Source of the DNA: an uncultured bacterium
Lineage (GTDB): Bacteria > Krumholzibacteriota > Krumholzibacteriia > LZORAL124-64-63
Direction of reading: 5' to 3'
Length of the DNA stretch: 33,324 bases
Assembly (NCBI GenBank): GCA_937910695.1
Contig: CALEMW010000066.1
Location: 1 to 33,324, forward strand
Below, piece after piece: positions 18,217-26,296 of this stretch. Position numbers and translations under genes: made by a program. Below the pieces are notes generated by a model, which made no database searches, had not been told where the DNA came from, and saw only the letters and a list, made by a program, of their open reading frames with translations. The stretch's first letter is position 1. Each line of letters starts with the position of its first letter.

Positions 18217-21200
18217 CTAACGCACGAGAGTAACCCGCGCCGTCATGGCTGAGTCTTCGAAGATCACCCGACTCAGGTACGCTCCCGAGGAGACTGCCCT
18301 CCCATTGTCGTCACGTCCGTCCCAGATCGCCTGATGGGCTCCTGAGGCGAGCCAGCCCGCCGCCAACGTACGTATGATCCTTCCCCTGAGATCGACCATG
18401 TTGACCATGGCGAATCCTGGTCTCGGTAGACTGTATGTGACCGTACACTGAGGGTTGCTCGGATTCGGCCATATCGACAGCGAGAGTCGTGGCGTAGGAA
18501 TCTCCTGCGGTCGGGGTTCTGCGGCAGCCGACACGTCCGGCACAACTACGTCCCGATCTGGCCAATCCTCCACGGTAACCTGCGAAAACGCCTGGATCTC
18601 CGAGATGCTCAGCCCGTAGCCGGCCAGGGGCAGGAAATCCAGCTTCAGCCACCTGACGTCAACCGGCGCGTCGAGGATCAGCCAGAACCCGTAGGTCAAC
18701 CGACCATCCGCCGGCAGCCCCGCGAATTCCGGCGACTGCTCGAAGCCCCAGTTCTGATGATCGCCCATGGGCGACCACACGTCGTCGTGCTGGATCACGC
18801 CAAGGCCTGTGAACGCCGCGTTGTCCGTGGAGCCCGACACGGTGATGGTGCCGGCGTGGGCGTAGTCGGCCAGGGGCTGGTGCGTGGTCACGCGTACGGC
18901 GGCCACCGTGCGGACGGCTCCCAGGTCGAGGGCGACACTCAACGGATCGTCGCCTTCCCACAGCGCCGTCTGGCCCTGCATGACGGTGGCGCCGACCCAG
19001 GTGGTGGGCGGTGCGATCACGCCGTCGGTGAGTTCGCCGCCGCCGCCGTCCCCGTTGACGAGCGACGCCGGTCGGCTGACGGTGTAGGGCCGGCCGCGGG
19101 CGACGTCGTCGTTCCAGGCGAAGGTCGTGCGCACGAGGTCGCGGCCGGCGCCGGTGCCCACGTCGACGCCGTCGGAGTAGCCGGTGGTCTCGCCGCCGTC
19201 GGCCAGGCGCAGGCGGACCCACTCCATGGTGGGTTCGCGGTACCCGCCCACGTTGATCGCCCAGGCGTCGTCGGCGGAGGTGACGATGCGGGTGTGCTCG
19301 CGGGTCACGTCGCCGTCGTTGCGGTGTTCGGTCCAGCACCAGGTTACGACCACCGGCGCGAATCCGGGGGCGCGGGGCGCGTGGTGCACGGTCATCAGTG
19401 CGTCGTTGACGCCGGTGCTGACGTAGTCCGAGCCCACAGCGCTGGACATGACGTAGCGCATCCGGATGTCGCGGACGCCGGCGCCGGGAACGAGGTCGGC
19501 GTAGATGCGGTCGTCCCAGGTCGACGCCGAGGAGGCGTCGTACACCGTGTCGGTGATGAACCCGCCGTCCTGGTACGAGTGCTGCAGCTTTACCCATTCC
19601 TGGGCGCCGCCGGTGCGGGCCAGGAAGCTGCCTCCGTACCTCACGCCGACGATGTCGGTGGGTGCTTGGATGCGCCAGGTCACCCGCCCCTCGCCGGCCG
19701 CGGCCGGCATGATCACGGCCTTGTATGTGGCGTCGGACGAGGCCAGGGCATGGATGTTGTCCCAGTCGGCGGCGCTGTCGTCGTACTGGCCGCCGTGCAG
19801 CGGGGGCCAGAGTGTCAGCGATTCCTGTTGCTCGCCCAGGGCGAACCGCGCCACATTGCGGCCGGTCGTAAACCGAGGCAGGGTGAAGGCGTTGAGCTGG
19901 GTGATCGTCTCGATGGTCACGCCGTTGAGGCCGCAGCGCTGGTCGTCGCCGTCGTCGGCGAACTCGATCCGGACGAGAAACTCGTGGGCTCCGCCGACCA
20001 GCGCGGAACCCAGATCGAAATCGAGATCGAAGCCGCCGTCGGGCGCCGACCACAACGGCGTCCAAGTGATGCCGGCGTCGCGTGAGACATAAAGCAGGAC
20101 CGCGTCGCCGGCCGGGCAGTTCCCCGTCAGGTGTACGGTCGCCGAGGTGGCGACATTGGCTGCATCGACCTTCCAGCACACCGTCGCGCCTCCCGCGCCG
20201 CCGCCGACCTGGAGCCGCGGCCCGCCGCCGCCGGTTTCGTCGCGGTGGGCGATGCCCGACTCGTCGAAGATCGCGGCCCTGTAGGCGGGAGTGTCCAGGT
20301 CGGGGGTGAAGGTCCACAGGCCGTTGCCGTGGAAGCCGGCCGCGATGGACGTGGCGTCGGGGTCCTCGCCGCCGGAGGTCGATCGGTAGTAGTCGGAGGT
20401 GTCGCCGAGGCGCGTCCAATACCGGGTGTAGGTCTGATCGGGACGCAGATGCAGACGGTAGCTCCAGCCGTAGCGCACATGGGTCCGTTCCTCTTCCGGG
20501 TAAGTGCCGGAGATGTAGGAGTCGGCGCCGTTGCGCAGAGTGCGGGTGTAGACGATGGGGTTGTCGCAGGCAGTGCGGTAGCCGCTGGGATGAGTCAGCT
20601 CGCCTGCGTGGGCCGGGTCGGGCGGGTTGGTCATGCACGGCTGGGCGGTATGGTAGAGATAGTAGTGGCCGGGTGTGTCGCCGGGATCGCCCAGGTCGCG
20701 GGAGACCTGGCACTGGGCGCTCGAGCCCAGCTCGTCGGCCGACGCCACCACGCCGTCGTGATTCAGGGCGTAGACCACCATCGAGGTGTCGAACATGTGC
20801 CAGGTGTCGCCGGCGTCCCAGCTCATCTCCATGACGGTGTGGTCGCCCAGCTCCACGTAACGGTGCCGCCAATCGCCGCCCATCCCGTCGACCATCGTGG
20901 TCATGAACGCCGCCATGAAGCCGCAGTAGGTGTTGGTGTAGCTGCTGTAGAAGTGGAACGGGTCCCAGAGGTAGCGGCCGTCTTCGCGGGTGGCATGGGT
21001 CTGCCGATGGTTGCGCGCGAGCCAGCGCCACAGGGCGATGCCCTGGTCCTGGGGATCGTTCCAGACCGGCATGGTCGAAGCGAGGAAGGACTCGCGGTCG
21101 ACCCAGTCGGGTGTGCTGTCGGTATGCAGGTGGATGTTGTAGACCGTCTGGGCCGCCGCCGGCACGACGGAGCAAACCAGGCCGACCAGAAGGGCGGCCG

Positions 21201-21261
21201 ACAACCAGGGACGGAATGAAGATGCGATGCGTCGGTCGGATGTTGCTGTGTTCATGGACAT
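18217..21261 (-). CDS. Large secreted protein with N-terminal transglutaminase-like domain, discoidin-like region and FlgD-like end domain
   Basis: 1014 residues with a signal peptide (about 19-37, ending AAA). The N-terminal part carries a Cys-His-Asp set in the order and spacing of transglutaminase-core enzymes: C113 in TYCGFMAAFM, H141 in ELGDHTVMEM and D158 in HMFDTSM. These domains include protein cross-linking enzymes, cysteine proteases and peptide:N-glycanase relatives. A long middle of beta-rich, aromatic sequence follows. About 790-860 (VALDLGAVRTVAAVRV, then TVSGSTDN) resembles F5/8 type C (discoidin) sugar-binding domains. The last 85 residues hold NPSNPQ, WDGRDD and SGAYLSRV of a FlgD-like domain, as in the subtilase. 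Two ATGs lie 6 nt apart; the outer one is taken. The triad is my reading and was not tested by profile search; the substrate is unknown. Confidence 0.8.
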   Translation of the reverse strand: MSMNTATSDRRIASSFRPWLSAALLVGLVCSVVPAAAQTVYNIHLHTDSTPDWVDRESFLASTMPVWNDPQDQGIALWRWLARNHRQTHATREDGRYLWDPFHFYSSYTNTYCGFMAAFMTTMVDGMGGDWRHRYVELGDHTVMEMSWDAGDTWHMFDTSMVVYALNHDGVVASADELGSSAQCQVSRDLGDPGDTPGHYYLYHTAQPCMTNPPDPAHAGELTHPSGYRTACDNPIVYTRTLRNGADSYISGTYPEEERTHVRYGWSYRLHLRPDQTYTRYWTRLGDTSDYYRSTSGGEDPDATSIAAGFHGNGLWTFTPDLDTPAYRAAIFDESGIAHRDETGGGGPRLQVGGGAGGATVCWKVDAANVATSATVHLTGNCPAGDAVLLYVSRDAGITWTPLWSAPDGGFDLDFDLGSALVGGAHEFLVRIEFADDGDDQRCGLNGVTIETITQLNAFTLPRFTTGRNVARFALGEQQESLTLWPPLHGGQYDDSAADWDNIHALASSDATYKAVIMPAAAGEGRVTWRIQAPTDIVGVRYGGSFLARTGGAQEWVKLQHSYQDGGFITDTVYDASSASTWDDRIYADLVPGAGVRDIRMRYVMSSAVGSDYVSTGVNDALMTVHHAPRAPGFAPVVVTWCWTEHRNDGDVTREHTRIVTSADDAWAINVGGYREPTMEWVRLRLADGGETTGYSDGVDVGTGAGRDLVRTTFAWNDDVARGRPYTVSRPASLVNGDGGGGELTDGVIAPPTTWVGATVMQGQTALWEGDDPLSVALDLGAVRTVAAVRVTTHQPLADYAHAGTITVSGSTDNAAFTGLGVIQHDDVWSPMGDHQNWGFEQSPEFAGLPADGRLTYGFWLILDAPVDVRWLKLDFLPLAGYGLSISEIQAFSQVTVEDWPDRDVVVPDVSAAAEPRPQEIPTPRLSLSIWPNPSNPQCTVTYSLPRPGFAMVNMVDLRGRIIRTLAAGWLASGAHQAIWDGRDDNGRAVSSGAYLSRVIFEDSAMTARVTLVR

Positions 21262-21347
21262 CAGAGTAATCCCGGGGCAAGACGGTGTCCACCCGATCGG
21301 ATCAGGTCGGAGGGAGAGTTCGCCGACTGGAGGCGTTGCCAGGGACG

Positions 21348-21356
21348 TGCTATCGT
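21348..21356 (+). promoter_or_regulatory. Candidate extended -10 promoter for the exported nuclease/phosphatase gene
   Basis: TGCTATCGT matches the TGn extension plus a 4/6 -10 box, 30 nt upstream of the start at 21387. No good -35 lies 17 nt upstream. It is in the 125-nt divergent region shared with the transglutaminase-like gene. Confidence 0.3.
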
Positions 21357-21386
21357 CGGGACGCCTTCAACCGAAAGCAGATCCGC

Positions 21387-22316
21387 ATGCCGCGCCGTAC
21401 GACAGTTCTTCTCGCCCTCGCCCTGGCCGCCATCGCCGCCCTTTCGGCGGCGGCCCCTCTCGAACCCGGCCGCACCCGCGTGATGAGTTTCAATATTCGG
21501 TACGGAACGGCGGAAGACGGAGACGACGTCTGGGAGAACCGACGCTTCCTGGTGCGGTTGACCATCCGCGACGCCGCTCCGGATCTGATCGGTCTGCAGG
21601 AATGCCTTGCCTTCCAGGCCGACGAACTGGATGAGGCGTTCCGCGACTTCGCCCTGGTGGGGGTTGGGCGAGACGACGGCGAACAAGGCGGAGAGATGTG
21701 CGCGATCATGTACCGCTGGTCCCGCTTCGAACTCCTCGACCAGGGCACCTTCTGGCTCAGCGAGACCCCCGAGCAGCCGGGTCGCAAGGGTTGGGACGCC
21801 GCCTGTCCCCGCATCGTCACCTGGGTGCAACTTGCCGATCGCTTCTGCGAACCCGACACGTTCGTCTTCGCCAGCACGCACCTCGATCATCTCGGGCCGC
21901 AGGCCCGCCGAGAAGGAGCGCGGCTGATCAGGAGCGGCCTCGAGGAGATCGCCGACGGGCTGCCGATCCTGCTGGCCGGCGACTTCAACGCCGGCGGCGG
22001 ACCCGGCGCTTCCGAGCCCTGGGACGTGCTGGCCGGCGATGGTGTGTGGCGCGACACGTGGCTCGAAGCCGGCGGCGAGGCCGGCCCCCTAGGCGACGGC
22101 ACCTTCCACGGCTTCGACGGCCTGCCCGACACCGGACGCATCGACTGGATCCTCTGTACGGGGGACTGGGAGGTGGAGGCGGCGGCCATCGTCCGCGCCG
22201 AACGCCGCGGCCGCTGGCCGAGCGATCATCATCCTGTGACGGCGGATTTCACGTTGGGCTGGCGGCCGGGCGTGGATGTCCTCGACGCCGTGACCGGGGC
22301 CACACCCCGCTATTGA
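21387..22316 (+). CDS. Exported endonuclease/exonuclease/phosphatase (EEP) family hydrolase
   Basis: 309 residues: signal peptide (6-23) then a complete EEP fold. The family motifs appear in order: MSFNIRYG (N36), LIGLQE (E72, metal ligand), STHLDH, AGDFNA, RIDWIL and SDHHPV (the catalytic His pair). Members cut nucleic acids, sphingomyelin or phosphoinositides; the MSFNIRYG start and short length resemble the bacterial secreted endonuclease/exonuclease/phosphatase group often found near glycan or phosphate scavenging genes. The internal ATG starts the signal peptide; its ribosome binding site (GAAAG) is weak. The last 7 nt overlap the 3' end of the CHAT gene on the opposite strand, with no terminator between them. 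Confidence 0.9.
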   Translation: MPRRTTVLLALALAAIAALSAAAPLEPGRTRVMSFNIRYGTAEDGDDVWENRRFLVRLTIRDAAPDLIGLQECLAFQADELDEAFRDFALVGVGRDDGEQGGEMCAIMYRWSRFELLDQGTFWLSETPEQPGRKGWDAACPRIVTWVQLADRFCEPDTFVFASTHLDHLGPQARREGARLIRSGLEEIADGLPILLAGDFNAGGGPGASEPWDVLAGDGVWRDTWLEAGGEAGPLGDGTFHGFDGLPDTGRIDWILCTGDWEVEAAAIVRAERRGRWPSDHHPVTADFTLGWRPGVDVLDAVTGATPRY

Positions 22317-24787
22317 CGATCGCCCGCAGCGCCGATCAGCACGAACCCCGACCAGTAGGCCGGATGGCGGAACGGCTGTCCGCCGTCCTCGTCCGTCCAC
22401 TCGCGCAGCCAGAGCCGGGAGCGGCGCAAAGCCTCGGCCGGCGTCACGTCCTCGTGCAGCAGCGTGTCGTAGAAGCGGCCCATGAGGCGCCGCGTCGCTT
22501 CGTCCTCCACCGTCCACAGACTCACCAGCAGGTTCCGGGCGCCGGCGCGCAGAAACGCGTGGGCCAGACCGATGTACCCTTCGCCTTTCGACGGCCGGCC
22601 CAGGGCGGTGCTGCAGCCGCTGAGGGTGACCAGGTCGGCGGTGATGCGCCAGTCGCGCACGATTTCGGCGGCGGTCAGCAGGCCGTCCTGTCCGCCGCCT
22701 GCGGCCAGGACCAGGGCGGAGCGGTCTGGGTTCTGGGCGTCGGCGAGGGCGTGGGTCGCAAGGTGGATCCAGCGAGTGTGTGTCAGTTCGCCTTTGGCAT
22801 TCAGGTTCGACAGTGCGGTCTCCGATGCCTCGGCTCCCAGCAGGATGGCGGCGTCGGGGAAAATGGCTGCCAGCTCGCGCACCTCGTCGCGGGCGCCGGG
22901 CAGGCTCGCCAGGCGGTTGTCGTCGACCTGGGGATCGCCCACCAGCAGTGCGCGCCCCGGGCCGGAACGACTGGGGGGCGAAGTGGCGGCGTAGCGTGCG
23001 TACAGCGAGGCCGACGGCGAGTACGATATGGCGAAACGGCTGTCGAGCAGCTCGCCGTTGCGGTCGCGGAGGGCTTCGACCGGCACGCCGAGCATCGATC
23101 CCGAAGGCAGGACGACCAGCCGGTCGACGCCGGCCAGTTCGGCGGCGAGGGGTGCGATCCATGCTTCGTGGATGCGGCGGGCCGCTTCGTCGATGCGCCC
23201 GGTGTCGTGCACGCGGAAGGGCCAGGAACCTGCATGGTCGAGGGCGTCGCGGAATTCAGCGGCGTCGCGTCGGGCGCGGACGACAGCGCCTTCGGGAATG
23301 CGTGCCCAGTGCACCGGCCCTTCGTGACGGACCACATAGACCCAGGCGGCGGCGGTCGAACGCAGTTCGATGTCGAGCCAGCCGATGATCGCCGTGTGCG
23401 GGTCCAGGGCCCTTTGGATATCGCCGATGGGCAGAGGCTGGGCGGCGCGGGATGAGTCGACTTTGTCGGCGGTGGACAGCAGGTCGGCGAGCGTGCGTCC
23501 CAGAGCCCGTTCCGTCGCTGTCCAGGCGCGTTTGTCGCGGCCCTGCAGGAGTTGGGCGGCGGCGAGGGCGCCGTAGGGAGTGACCTGGAAGTCGCTGCGC
23601 TCATAGCCGAGACCCACGTTCAAACGAGCGCGTTCGTGAACTTCACAGGCGGTTGAAAGCAGCGATTCGGCCTCCTGGAGATCGCCGGCCAGCCAGCGGG
23701 CGAGGCCGCGGTCGGCGATGACTTCGGCCACGTGGGGATGATCGTTGCCGAGGGCGTCGCGGTACAGGTGCTCGGCGTCGCGCAGCAGCGTGTCGGCGGC
23801 GGCCACGCGGCCCAGTTCGCGCTGGGCTGTACCCAGGGAATGGAGGGCGCCGGCTACGTACTGGCCCTGATCACCATAAGTGTGACGGAGGTGGGCCAGG
23901 GCTTCTCGCATGACGGGAACGGCGTCGGCCGGACGACCGGCTTCGAGCCTCGTGTTGCCGAGGTTGTGCAGGGTGAGGCCCACGTCGGGATGATCGACAC
24001 CGAGCTGCCTGCGCTGATGTTCGAGCACTTCCTCGAACAGCGATTCGGCTTCGGCGTAGTCGCCCTTGACGCTCAGGAAGATGGCCAGGTTGTGCAGGCT
24101 CGAGACGATGTCCATGGACTCGGGCTCGAGGATGCGGCGTCGCATGGCGAGAGCCTGACGGTACAAGGGTTCCGCAGCCCCGAAATCGCCGCGCAGACGT
24201 TCGACCGTGGCGAGGGTGGCCAGGGCCTTGGCCACGCGGGGATGGTCGTTGCCCAGGGTGTTGCTGAGGATCGTCAAGGCTTCGCGGATAAGGCCGCCCG
24301 CCTCTCCGTAGCGGCCGCGTTGCAGATTCAGAACTCCCAGGCGCCGCAGGCTCTCGGCGATGTCTTCGTGATCGGGGGGCAGATACGCTCGTCTGACGGC
24401 GAGCTGCCGTTCAGCGAGATCGGCGGCGCTGTCGAATTCCCCTTGGGCATAGAGGCCGAGAAGCTGCGGCGTCAGGATGTCGGCGGCGGAGAGCGCCGTC
24501 TGCACCGAGTCGGGATGCAGGATCAGCCAGTCGAGATGGATGACGGCGCGGCGGGCGTCGACGAGCTGCCAGGGGCGGGTGGTGGGATCGGTCTCGACGG
24601 CTTCGCGCCAGCCACGTGCGGTTGCGAGGGCGCCCTGCAGGTCGCCGGCCAGTCGGAGTTCGTCGACGCGCTGCCGGGCGTCGTGGTCGGGGGGCGGTGC
24701 CGCCGTTCCTTGAGTCACGACGACGAAGACGGCGACGATCAACGCCGCCGTCGCAGTTCGAAGGGCCCACCGGAGGGGGGAGGGCAT
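22310..24787 (-). CDS. TPR-CHAT protease, exported or membrane-anchored, third gene of a sigma/anti-sigma operon
   Basis: 825 residues. An N-terminal hydrophobic segment (about 8-29, then TQGTAAPPP) looks like a signal peptide or anchor. About 105-390 is a run of tetratricopeptide repeats of the kinesin-light-chain style with recurring DHP(R/D/H)VA and AE.L(Y/F)..AL motifs. The C-terminal CHAT domain (about 545-820), a caspase-like peptidase, has the expected catalytic pair H679 (IHLATHA) and C725 (LSGCSTA). The family motif RAGARNLLVSLWTVED (748-763) also matches. It should therefore be an active cysteine peptidase, probably cutting after a specific residue when TPR-bound signals arrive. GAGGAG precedes the ATG, 23 nt from the anti-sigma stop. 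The likely target is the neighbouring anti-sigma factor; that is inference from context. Confidence 0.9.
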   Translation of the reverse strand: MPSPLRWALRTATAALIVAVFVVVTQGTAAPPPDHDARQRVDELRLAGDLQGALATARGWREAVETDPTTRPWQLVDARRAVIHLDWLILHPDSVQTALSAADILTPQLLGLYAQGEFDSAADLAERQLAVRRAYLPPDHEDIAESLRRLGVLNLQRGRYGEAGGLIREALTILSNTLGNDHPRVAKALATLATVERLRGDFGAAEPLYRQALAMRRRILEPESMDIVSSLHNLAIFLSVKGDYAEAESLFEEVLEHQRRQLGVDHPDVGLTLHNLGNTRLEAGRPADAVPVMREALAHLRHTYGDQGQYVAGALHSLGTAQRELGRVAAADTLLRDAEHLYRDALGNDHPHVAEVIADRGLARWLAGDLQEAESLLSTACEVHERARLNVGLGYERSDFQVTPYGALAAAQLLQGRDKRAWTATERALGRTLADLLSTADKVDSSRAAQPLPIGDIQRALDPHTAIIGWLDIELRSTAAAWVYVVRHEGPVHWARIPEGAVVRARRDAAEFRDALDHAGSWPFRVHDTGRIDEAARRIHEAWIAPLAAELAGVDRLVVLPSGSMLGVPVEALRDRNGELLDSRFAISYSPSASLYARYAATSPPSRSGPGRALLVGDPQVDDNRLASLPGARDEVRELAAIFPDAAILLGAEASETALSNLNAKGELTHTRWIHLATHALADAQNPDRSALVLAAGGGQDGLLTAAEIVRDWRITADLVTLSGCSTALGRPSKGEGYIGLAHAFLRAGARNLLVSLWTVEDEATRRLMGRFYDTLLHEDVTPAEALRRSRLWLREWTDEDGGQPFRHPAYWSGFVLIGAAGDRQ

Positions 24788-24810
24788 GGACGAGCTCCTC
24801 GCTCAGTCGG

Positions 24811-25560
24811 TCATGGTCGGCGCTGCTGCAGCGCGTTGCGGGCGCGGTCGCCCACCTCGCCGGATTCCGTAGCCAGATCCGTCAGCAACGAATCGGCGCG
24901 GGCCTGTTCCCCGAGTTTGGCGTATGTCACGCACAAGGTCCAGCGGGCTTCGCTGCCCCAGGGATCGGGCAAGGTTCGGGCGGACAACGATTCCAGGACG
25001 TTGCGGGCGTCGGGCAAGCGACCCGCCTGGGCCAGGGCGCTGCCCAGGTAGACGTCGCGCACCGGCTGGAGCTCCGAGGCCGGGGCGGCGTCTTCGAGGA
25101 GATCGGCGGCGCGGGCGTAGTCGCCCAGAACATAGGCTTCGAATCCCGATGTCAGGACGGGATCGTCGACGGATGAGGCATCGCGCTGACGCAGTTCCAC
25201 GTCGGGAACGGGCAGGGTGTGGAAATTGAGATTCGGCTGGGACGCGTGGGGCCAGATCAAGGCGAAGGCCAGAACGGCGGCCGCGGCCAAGGGGGCGGCT
25301 GCGGTCCAGCGCAGATAACGCGACGGTAGCGGAACGGGTACGCGGTCGGCTGCCGCGGCGACGAACACTCCGGCTTCCGCGGCCGCGCGACCCTGTTCGA
25401 TGCTCAAAACGATCGATCGGAAGGAATCCTCGCATTCGGCGCAGGCCTTCAGGTGATCGAGCACGGGGGGGCGCTCGGCGTCCGGCAGCAGGTCGGCGGC
25501 CAGATCCAGCAGCATGTCTGGTGCGGGGTGTCGCCCGCTGACTCTCACGTGATCACTCAT
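24811..25560 (-). CDS. Transmembrane zinc-finger anti-sigma factor with TPR-like C-terminal tail
   Basis: 249 residues. The N-terminal cytoplasmic part carries the ZAS signature H36-x3-C40-x2-C43 of zinc-binding anti-sigma domains that clamp ECF sigma factors. A single membrane helix lies at about 84-103 and would place the C-terminal part outside the cytoplasm. That tail (135-249) has TPR-like helical pairs, such as GFEAYVLGDYARAADLLEDA and YLGSALAQAGRLPDARNVLE. Its ATG overlaps the sigma factor stop by 8 nt, tying its synthesis to that of its target. The tail is suited to interact with the TPRs of the next gene's CHAT protease. It is the expected brake on the sigma factor. Confidence 0.87.
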   Translation of the reverse strand: MSDHVRVSGRHPAPDMLLDLAADLLPDAERPPVLDHLKACAECEDSFRSIVLSIEQGRAAAEAGVFVAAAADRVPVPLPSRYLRWTAAAPLAAAAVLAFALIWPHASQPNLNFHTLPVPDVELRQRDASSVDDPVLTSGFEAYVLGDYARAADLLEDAAPASELQPVRDVYLGSALAQAGRLPDARNVLESLSARTLPDPWGSEARWTLCVTYAKLGEQARADSLLTDLATESGEVGDRARNALQQRRP

Positions 25561-26296
25561 TGCTCACCTTGTCTCGATCCCGGCGCCATCGGGCCCGGTA
25601 TCGCTCCCAGATCGCTGTGAAGGTCCCCTGCGGCATCCGTGTCGGGTCGTGGCCTTTGCGCGTCATGCATTCGGTCATGACGGCCCTGGCCCGCTGAAGG
25701 ATCACATCGACGTTTCCCGGTGTCTTGTTCACTTCGGGATGGTCGGCGATCTCCTTCGACGACATCTCCAACAGGACCCTGAAGAACCAGACGACGCGGG
25801 CGTCGTCGGTCAGTCCGTCGACGCAGTTCGCCAGGTCCCGTGCGTACTCGTCGCGTTCGGCCCCCAGGCCGGCCGGCTCGAGGTGCGCCGCCACCGGAGC
25901 GTGGCTCCGATAGGCCGGCGCATCCCAGCCGGGTCCCTCAGGGTTTGCTTCCGGGTGAACAAGACGGCCTTCCCTCCGCAACGAGTCCACGAGAGCGTTG
26001 TGCGCCGCCGTGGAAAGGAAGGACGCAAGTTCTCCGGGAGCGTGTCCGGAGATGTCCCAACGACCCGATACGATCCTCCGGAGCAAATCCAACGCTTTTT
26101 CTGATGCTAAATCTTCGAGGGTTTCCGCGGAGACAGAACCGTAGCGGGAGGCGTGCTGCCGGGAGCGGATCAGCAGGGAGGTGCGCAGCAGGGGCCAGGC
26201 CTCGGCCATCAGGGCATCACGGCGCGACTCGTCGGCATTGGCGAGCTGGCTCAGGGCGTCGTAGAGTCGTTGCGACCAAACAGGTTGCGTCGTCAT
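25553..26296 (-). CDS. ECF-type sigma-70 family RNA polymerase sigma factor
   Basis: 247 residues, longer than typical ECF factors of about 190. Region 2 is at about 28-110 (EDLASEKALDLLRRI, then ASFLSTAAHNALVDSLRREGR, the -10 recognition part). Region 4 is at about 157-212 (GLTDDARVVWFFRVLLEMSS with a helix-turn-helix to ILQRARAVMTECM, -35 recognition). The linker (111-150) and a basic C-terminal tail of about 33 residues (TAIWERYRARWRRDRDK) are longer than usual. It directs RNA polymerase to a private promoter set, probably including its own operon. It is first of the three-gene operon with anti-sigma and TPR-CHAT genes. A G-rich ribosome binding site (AAGGAGGGGGG) lies 10-14 nt before the ATG. 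The target promoters are unknown. Confidence 0.9.
   Translation of the reverse strand: MTTQPVWSQRLYDALSQLANADESRRDALMAEAWPLLRTSLLIRSRQHASRYGSVSAETLEDLASEKALDLLRRIVSGRWDISGHAPGELASFLSTAAHNALVDSLRREGRLVHPEANPEGPGWDAPAYRSHAPVAAHLEPAGLGAERDEYARDLANCVDGLTDDARVVWFFRVLLEMSSKEIADHPEVNKTPGNVDVILQRARAVMTECMTRKGHDPTRMPQGTFTAIWERYRARWRRDRDKVSNE

Follow-up and report, generated by a model that had tools for sequence, protein, structure and literature searches.

Adjacent genes for a predicted sigma factor, its putative inhibitor and a TPR-CHAT protease predicted to be exported: a candidate for regulated anti-sigma proteolysis in Krumholzibacteriota

Among the described systems closest to the locus reported here is that of DegS, a serine PDZ protease. 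In the DegS-RseA-RseP-sigmaE pathway, a single-pass anti-sigma factor is cut on the outer side of the membrane, an M50 protease acts on it and the sigma factor is released (PMC10028731), which is also the logic that we predict here. In the DdvS/DdvA system of Myxococcus xanthus (PDB 8rot, 8rw5), the outer domain of the anti-sigma factor is a homologous TPR-CHAT domain, and in Craspase a TPR-CHAT protease is likewise paired with an inhibitor of a sigma factor of the extracytoplasmic function (ECF) type (PMC10028731). Here we describe three adjacent genes on the minus strand of contig CALEMW010000066.1 (GenBank assembly GCA_937910695.1) from an uncultured bacterium of the Krumholzibacteriota; the whole stretch analysed, 33,324 nucleotides long, is referred to as the window. 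The genes encode a predicted ECF-like sigma factor, a putative membrane anti-sigma factor and a protein with a caspase-like CHAT domain that is predicted to be exported. We propose, with a probability of roughly 0.6, that the CHAT protein would cut the anti-sigma factor, most likely at a conserved arginine, and so release the sigma factor.

The three genes stay together well beyond the window. Among 132 genomes from three phylum-level groups, 22 strong sigma loci were found in 18. They comprise 10 full-length loci from the window's own phylum (8 of 80 genomes), retrieved with the sigma protein as query (matches weaker than 3e-27 were left out, at a clean drop in E from 3e-27 to 1.5e-7), and, from profile searches at E <= 1e-20, nine loci in 8 of 47 genomes in the group of an Eisenbacteria record and three in 2 of 5 in the group of isolate M3-44_Bin_119. 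An anti-sigma gene adjoins the sigma gene in all 22 (weakly in L043). An adjacent CHAT gene reaching the end of its domain is present in 19; the other three loci are broken by contig ends, two of them (L077, L085) within an exported TPR protein and the third (L046) within the anti-sigma gene. Another contig of that last genome, L166, carries the matching anti-sigma tail followed by a CHAT gene, and the two contigs likely join. In the window and in all relatives counted, the anti-sigma and CHAT proteins have separate genes. The preliminary description expected the three genes to co-occur in relatives, and they do so in all three groups.

The orientation of the CHAT gene varies. It follows the anti-sigma gene on the same strand in 10 of the 19 loci (the window, L057, L075, L076 and L078-L083), is divergent from the sigma gene in five (L038, L039, L040, L042, L084) and is convergent with the anti-sigma gene in four (L041, L043, L044, L045). 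Adjacency that survives such rearrangement argues more strongly for a functional link than adjacency in an operon of fixed layout would; chance was rejected as its explanation, on the grounds of 22/22 sigma loci and three orientations. The proteins also covary: for the 19 triads, distance matrices correlate with r of 0.73 (sigma/anti-sigma), 0.74 (sigma/CHAT) and 0.81 (anti-sigma/CHAT), values reached in 0 of 2000 permutations each, and for none of the three proteins are the three modules of one genome, G007, mutual closest relatives. The most divergent triad (L043:6858-12382) has a lipoprotein-type CHAT protein and an anti-sigma tail that does not resemble the TPR tails found elsewhere and, by eye, looks fibronectin-like.

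The identities of the proteins are secured to different degrees. For the large protein, the earlier label holds with ease: it matches Pfam CHAT (PF12770) at E 4.8e-68 and 230 bits, against a curated cut-off of 24, and TPR_12 at E 2.6e-45, and its His-Cys dyad is present. The sigma and zinc-finger labels proved weaker than had been implied. The first protein matches Sigma70_r4_2 at 21.4 bits (cut-off 25.7) and Sigma70_r2 at 16.2 bits (cut-off 24), in the correct order and both below cut-off, and TIGR02937 at 39.1 bits (cut-off 42.9); its family alignment, A1, has 10 members and 16 invariant columns. The second protein reaches 11.0 bits against zf-HC2 (cut-off 22.2), with the HxxxCxxC motif present. 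Both assignments therefore lean on matches below cut-off together with the conserved gene order. We infer that the first gene encodes a sigma factor and, from the adjacency of the two genes in all 22 loci, that the product of the second binds and inhibits it. The order of the genes, with an 8 nt overlap between sigma and anti-sigma genes and a 23 nt gap before the TPR-CHAT gene, agrees with the preliminary description, and the residues it named, H36, C40 and C43 in the anti-sigma and H679 and C725 in the CHAT protein, are seen directly in the translations.

The anti-sigma tail and the CHAT protein are both predicted to be on the outer side of the inner membrane. By hydropathy, the anti-sigmas have one membrane segment, and the N side is the more positively charged in 20 of 21, so that the TPR tail would lie outside. 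The CHAT proteins have a single hydrophobic export segment at the N-terminus, with a lipobox pattern flagged in 6 of 20. Both segments are present in 34 of 36 pairs, counted at KD19 1.5 and KD15 1.4 (set afterwards), with gene starts as called and an N-terminal range of 260 residues for five long frames; in L168b the anti-sigma passes the membrane threshold and its CHAT protein scores 1.27, so that it is left out of the 34. The placement of the two proteins on the same side of the membrane, which had been suggested earlier, thus agrees with the topologies predicted from hydropathy. In L163, the anti-sigma has no membrane segment and the CHAT protein no export segment, and a linker Arg-Gly is retained (by eye). 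This sigma/anti-sigma/CHAT operon (L163:3763-7824) is a possible cytosolic version; one case proves little, yet it matches what a same-compartment partnership would predict. A hunt for further soluble pairs like that of L163 returned partial matches only.

The candidate cleavage site is R126, in the linker that connects the membrane segment of the anti-sigma to its TPRs. In this first family, the column is Arg in 42 of 43 non-redundant rows and shares the top rank in conservation with Y143 and P198. The anti-sigma profile also retrieved more distant TPR-tailed anti-sigmas, a second family, in which the column is Arg in 47 of 49 non-redundant rows; Lys never occupies it in either family. The residue that follows is S, A, G or D in 36/43 rows of the first family and A, G, S or T in 47/49 of the second. 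The 43 rows consist of 20 from loci read and 23 database proteins, and the 49 of 14 from loci and 35 database proteins, after removal of near-duplicates (>80% identity; five first-family and nine second-family rows). L043 was left out of the first count for its different tail (its aligned residue is Arg), and P0090 was dropped from the 45 second-family database matches; the three database searches, including the one that gave these 45, each scored a capped set of about 8000 candidates. In the AlphaFold2 (AF2) model, residues 121-130 have a mean predicted local distance difference test score (pLDDT) of 64, with flanking blocks at 90 and 88. Of eight clan CD rows consulted in PMC4357240, five give Arg at P1, separase among them, and the separase consensus is D/ExxR (PMC4626109). 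On these grounds R126 is proposed as a candidate P1. The anti-sigmas of L039, L040 and L084 have lost the zinc-finger cysteines and kept the linker Arg. No PDB fold match below E 1e-3 was found for the anti-sigma AF2 model, the top rows being mostly TPR proteins.

On the enzyme side, E635, H679 and C725 are invariant in 36/36 aligned CHATs (L085 and L151, with incomplete CHAT domains, were left out). In Arg-specific clan CD enzymes, the S1 acid lies after strand 1 or on helix 1, as do gingipain D163 and MALT1 D365 (PMC4626109), and E635 may be the corresponding acid, judging from its place in the domain.

We therefore envisage a sequence of events in which the three genes would form one signalling unit. 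A signal, presumably sensed by the TPR parts, would trigger the exported TPR-CHAT protease, which would act as the site-1 protease and cleave the membrane-bound anti-sigma on its outer side, at R126. An RseP-like M50 protease would then remove the membrane stub, and the cleavage of the anti-sigma would lead to release of the sigma factor. The window genome encodes an M50 protease (PF02163, E 2.3e-62).

A number of observations weigh against this proposal. All 14 control genomes have an M50 protease, so its presence is unspecific. The module is patchy, the sigma factor being undetected at the thresholds used in 114 of 132 genomes, and organism phylogeny contributes to the mirror-tree correlation and can alone yield much of it. 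As to the arginine, L078, the sole first-family exception, has it two residues on, and P0087 and P0088 of the second family have Leu; 13 second-family columns are more conserved than the Arg; and 23/43 and 35/49 of the rows are database proteins of unseen CHAT context. The AF2 model draws a short helix at 121-126, and the spacing of the Arg from an upstream Pro, constant in most rows, is equally compatible with a structural role. The Arg is also retained in anti-sigmas that have no CHAT gene next to them (L162 in the alignment; L158, L164 and L165 by eye), which suggests that it may have a structural role or be served in trans. In the CHAT domain, 24 of 36 proteins retain D762, and 12 members of the second family have Gly instead. 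The P1-Arg-binding acid of separase, D2151, which corresponds to K670 in Csx29 (PMC9729208), aligns to window CHAT residue 766, a position acidic in 0/36 CHATs, and Csx29 enzymes cut non-conserved, non-Arg sites (PMC11106740).

The alternative that survives best is that the TPR-CHAT protein serves as a ligand sensor or a scaffold: by binding to the anti-sigma's TPR tail it would change the hold of the anti-sigma on the sigma factor without cutting, as a split DdvA would, with a structural role for the linker Arg. The retention of the Arg where no CHAT adjoins suits this explanation, as do the TPRs present in both the CHAT protein and the anti-sigma and the TPR-CHAT fold that DdvA carries within its anti-sigma chain. 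We nevertheless regard it as unlikely, since the His, the Cys and E635 are kept in all 36 CHATs despite 26-58% identity to the window (two alignments), which argues for retained catalysis.

Ranking below it, and in our judgement improbable, is the explanation that the CHAT protein is an output: the sigma factor would induce an exported protease acting on other envelope proteins, and the neighbours would be held together through shared regulation. The head-to-head CHAT and sigma genes of 5/19 loci would suit sigma-driven expression, but the convergent loci (4/19) have no common promoter region, and no promoter motif shared upstream of the sigma genes was seen in nine regions inspected informally by eye. 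The strongest covariation, moreover, is that between anti-sigma and CHAT, and in L163 the membrane and export segments are missing together. Upstream of their sigma genes, L039 and L040 have a common ATATGCGATA stretch.

That these genes belong to the Craspase (Csx29-Csx30-CASP-sigma) lineage, as a member without CRISPR, is very improbable, and membership was rejected as unproven: the TPR-CHAT protein scores 22.2 bits against NCBIfam Csx29 (cut-off 300) and so falls outside that family, Cas1 has no match in the 94% complete genome (9 of 14 control genomes matched; no search was made for Csx30 and gRAMP/Cas7-11), and the predicted location of the proteins is outside the inner membrane. The kinship with the Craspase arm that the preliminary description had suggested is thereby reduced to analogy, DdvA being nearer by CHAT-domain sequence. 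The proposal of anti-sigma cleavage by the CHAT protease stands as the preferred one, and the features on which it draws are listed in Table 1.

Table 1. Positions of the trio and its parts in the window (aa, amino acids; pTM, predicted template modelling score; KD, hydropathy score)
Feature	Position	Strand	Basis
ECF-like sigma factor, 247 aa	25553..26296	-	Sub-threshold sigma-70 matches and family alignment A1
Single-pass anti-sigma factor with TPR tail, 249 aa	24811..25560	-	AF2 mean pLDDT 86.7, pTM 0.61
H36-x3-C40-x2-C43 zinc-finger-like motif, anti-sigma N-terminal domain	25432..25455	-	Read from sequence
Anti-sigma transmembrane segment, residues 85-103, predicted N-in/C-out	25252..25308	-	KD19 1.84; R/K flanks 3 (N) vs 0 (C)
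R126, nearly invariant linker arginine, candidate P1 (VELRQR↓DASS)	25183..25185	-	Conservation in two anti-sigma families
Anti-sigma TPR tail, residues 134-247	24820..25161	-	TPR_19 24.1 bits vs cut-off 25; AF2 helices
Exported TPR-CHAT caspase-like protease (predicted), 825 aa	22310..24787	-	AF2 pLDDT 85.2, pTM 0.79
N-terminal export or anchor segment of CHAT protein, residues 1-29	24701..24787	-	KD15 2.48; best later 19-mer 1.42
TPR superhelix of CHAT protein, residues 33-437	23477..24691	-	TPR_12, TPR_10; AF2 helices
CHAT domain, residues 534-820	22328..23188	-	Pfam match
E635, candidate S1-pocket acid (invariant; early part of CHAT domain)	22883..22885	-	36/36 CHATs
Catalytic His679	22751..22753	-	36/36 CHATs
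Catalytic Cys725	22613..22615	-	36/36 CHATs

The second family was read in 22 loci, made up of the best-scoring ones (E about 7e-11 or better; weaker anti-sigma matches were left out of the context reading) and one seen in L083/L168. A CHAT gene adjoins the anti-sigma gene in 15 of these 22 and is divergent in 12. In L147 and L148, a contig edge lies where the divergent CHAT gene would be, with the start of an exported protein visible there in L148; in L151 the CHAT gene is about 5 kb away; and in L158, L162, L164 and L165 no CHAT gene was found nearby in the stretches read. The upstream genes are mostly unmatched by the sigma profile of the first family, and the two that were scanned, those of L049 and L163, give sub-threshold Sigma70_r2 matches. 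An extra gene beside the anti-sigma gene encodes a small exported protein in L049 (5532-6272), L147 (2305-3144) and L148 (3044-3751). These small proteins have a similar C-terminal end (W, then Lys, then LYR), and a related ending also occurs next to another CHAT in L052.

The window genome has seven CHAT matches. One second-family module is on its contig C54 (L049), and a sigma/anti-sigma-like pair lies near a CHAT gene on contig C139 (L050). On contig C55 (L047:2335-7056), an exported CHAT protein is followed by an ECF sigma factor and a membrane protein with a DUF4384 tail; this membrane protein is a third kind of CHAT-linked anti-sigma-like protein. Within the window, positions 18217-22316 encode two proteins named by eye: a transglutaminase-like exported protein with a probable sorting domain at its end, and an endonuclease/phosphatase-like protein. 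The gene of the latter is convergent with the CHAT gene, and the two overlap by 7 nt at their stop ends. No defence enrichment was seen near the loci in the 82 proteins scanned of 101 flanking proteins (up to 1200 aa, 17 loci). PADLOC gave scattered matches to 12 models (E <= 1e-10), including RtcR- and Csa3-type regulators, and the top Pfam families of the flanking proteins have no common function except FlgD_ig (11/82).

To our knowledge, few bacterial CHAT proteases have an identified substrate. In the present case, conservation predicts not only the substrate but also the site and the read-out (sigma activity), which brings all three within reach of a single experiment. Should the proposal hold, proteolysis of the caspase type would feed into bacterial transcription outside CRISPR as well, and DdvA and Craspase could be compared as variations on a common theme. 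In the titles and abstracts returned by searches of the open-licence PMC literature, no module of a sigma factor, an anti-sigma factor and a separate exported CHAT protein was found described. A broader view, which we offer tentatively and think somewhat doubtful, is that a family of exported caspase/separase-type proteases, each with its own membrane anti-sigma, drives transcriptional signalling across the membrane by cutting one invariant Arg, and that both the DdvA fusion and the sigma arm of Craspase arose later, by rearrangement of this caspase-to-sigma circuit.

How the trio compares with known systems can now be stated. By CHAT-domain sequence, its nearest solved relative is DdvA, a Myxococcus anti-sigma factor with a TPR-CHAT fold, while in the fold comparison Csx29 scores somewhat higher than DdvA; separase matches by fold only and is absent from the sequence-search listing. 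Separase is eukaryotic, with cohesin as its substrate, and its P1-binding Asp position is non-acidic in these CHATs. We know of no export or membrane part in the Craspase arm, which, unlike the system proposed here, is RNA-guided. Its Csx30 is cut at the non-conserved sites A↓S, L↓D and M↓K (PMC11106740), whereas one conserved Arg is the candidate here. In DdvA, the anti-sigma domain, membrane segment and TPR-CHAT domain form one polypeptide, whereas here the predicted protease is separate and exported. In contrast to the DegS system, the first cut would fall to a cysteine protease of clan CD whose gene lies next to that of its target. The trio thus appears to be a variant of regulated anti-sigma proteolysis, probably analogous to the Craspase arm and not a member of it.
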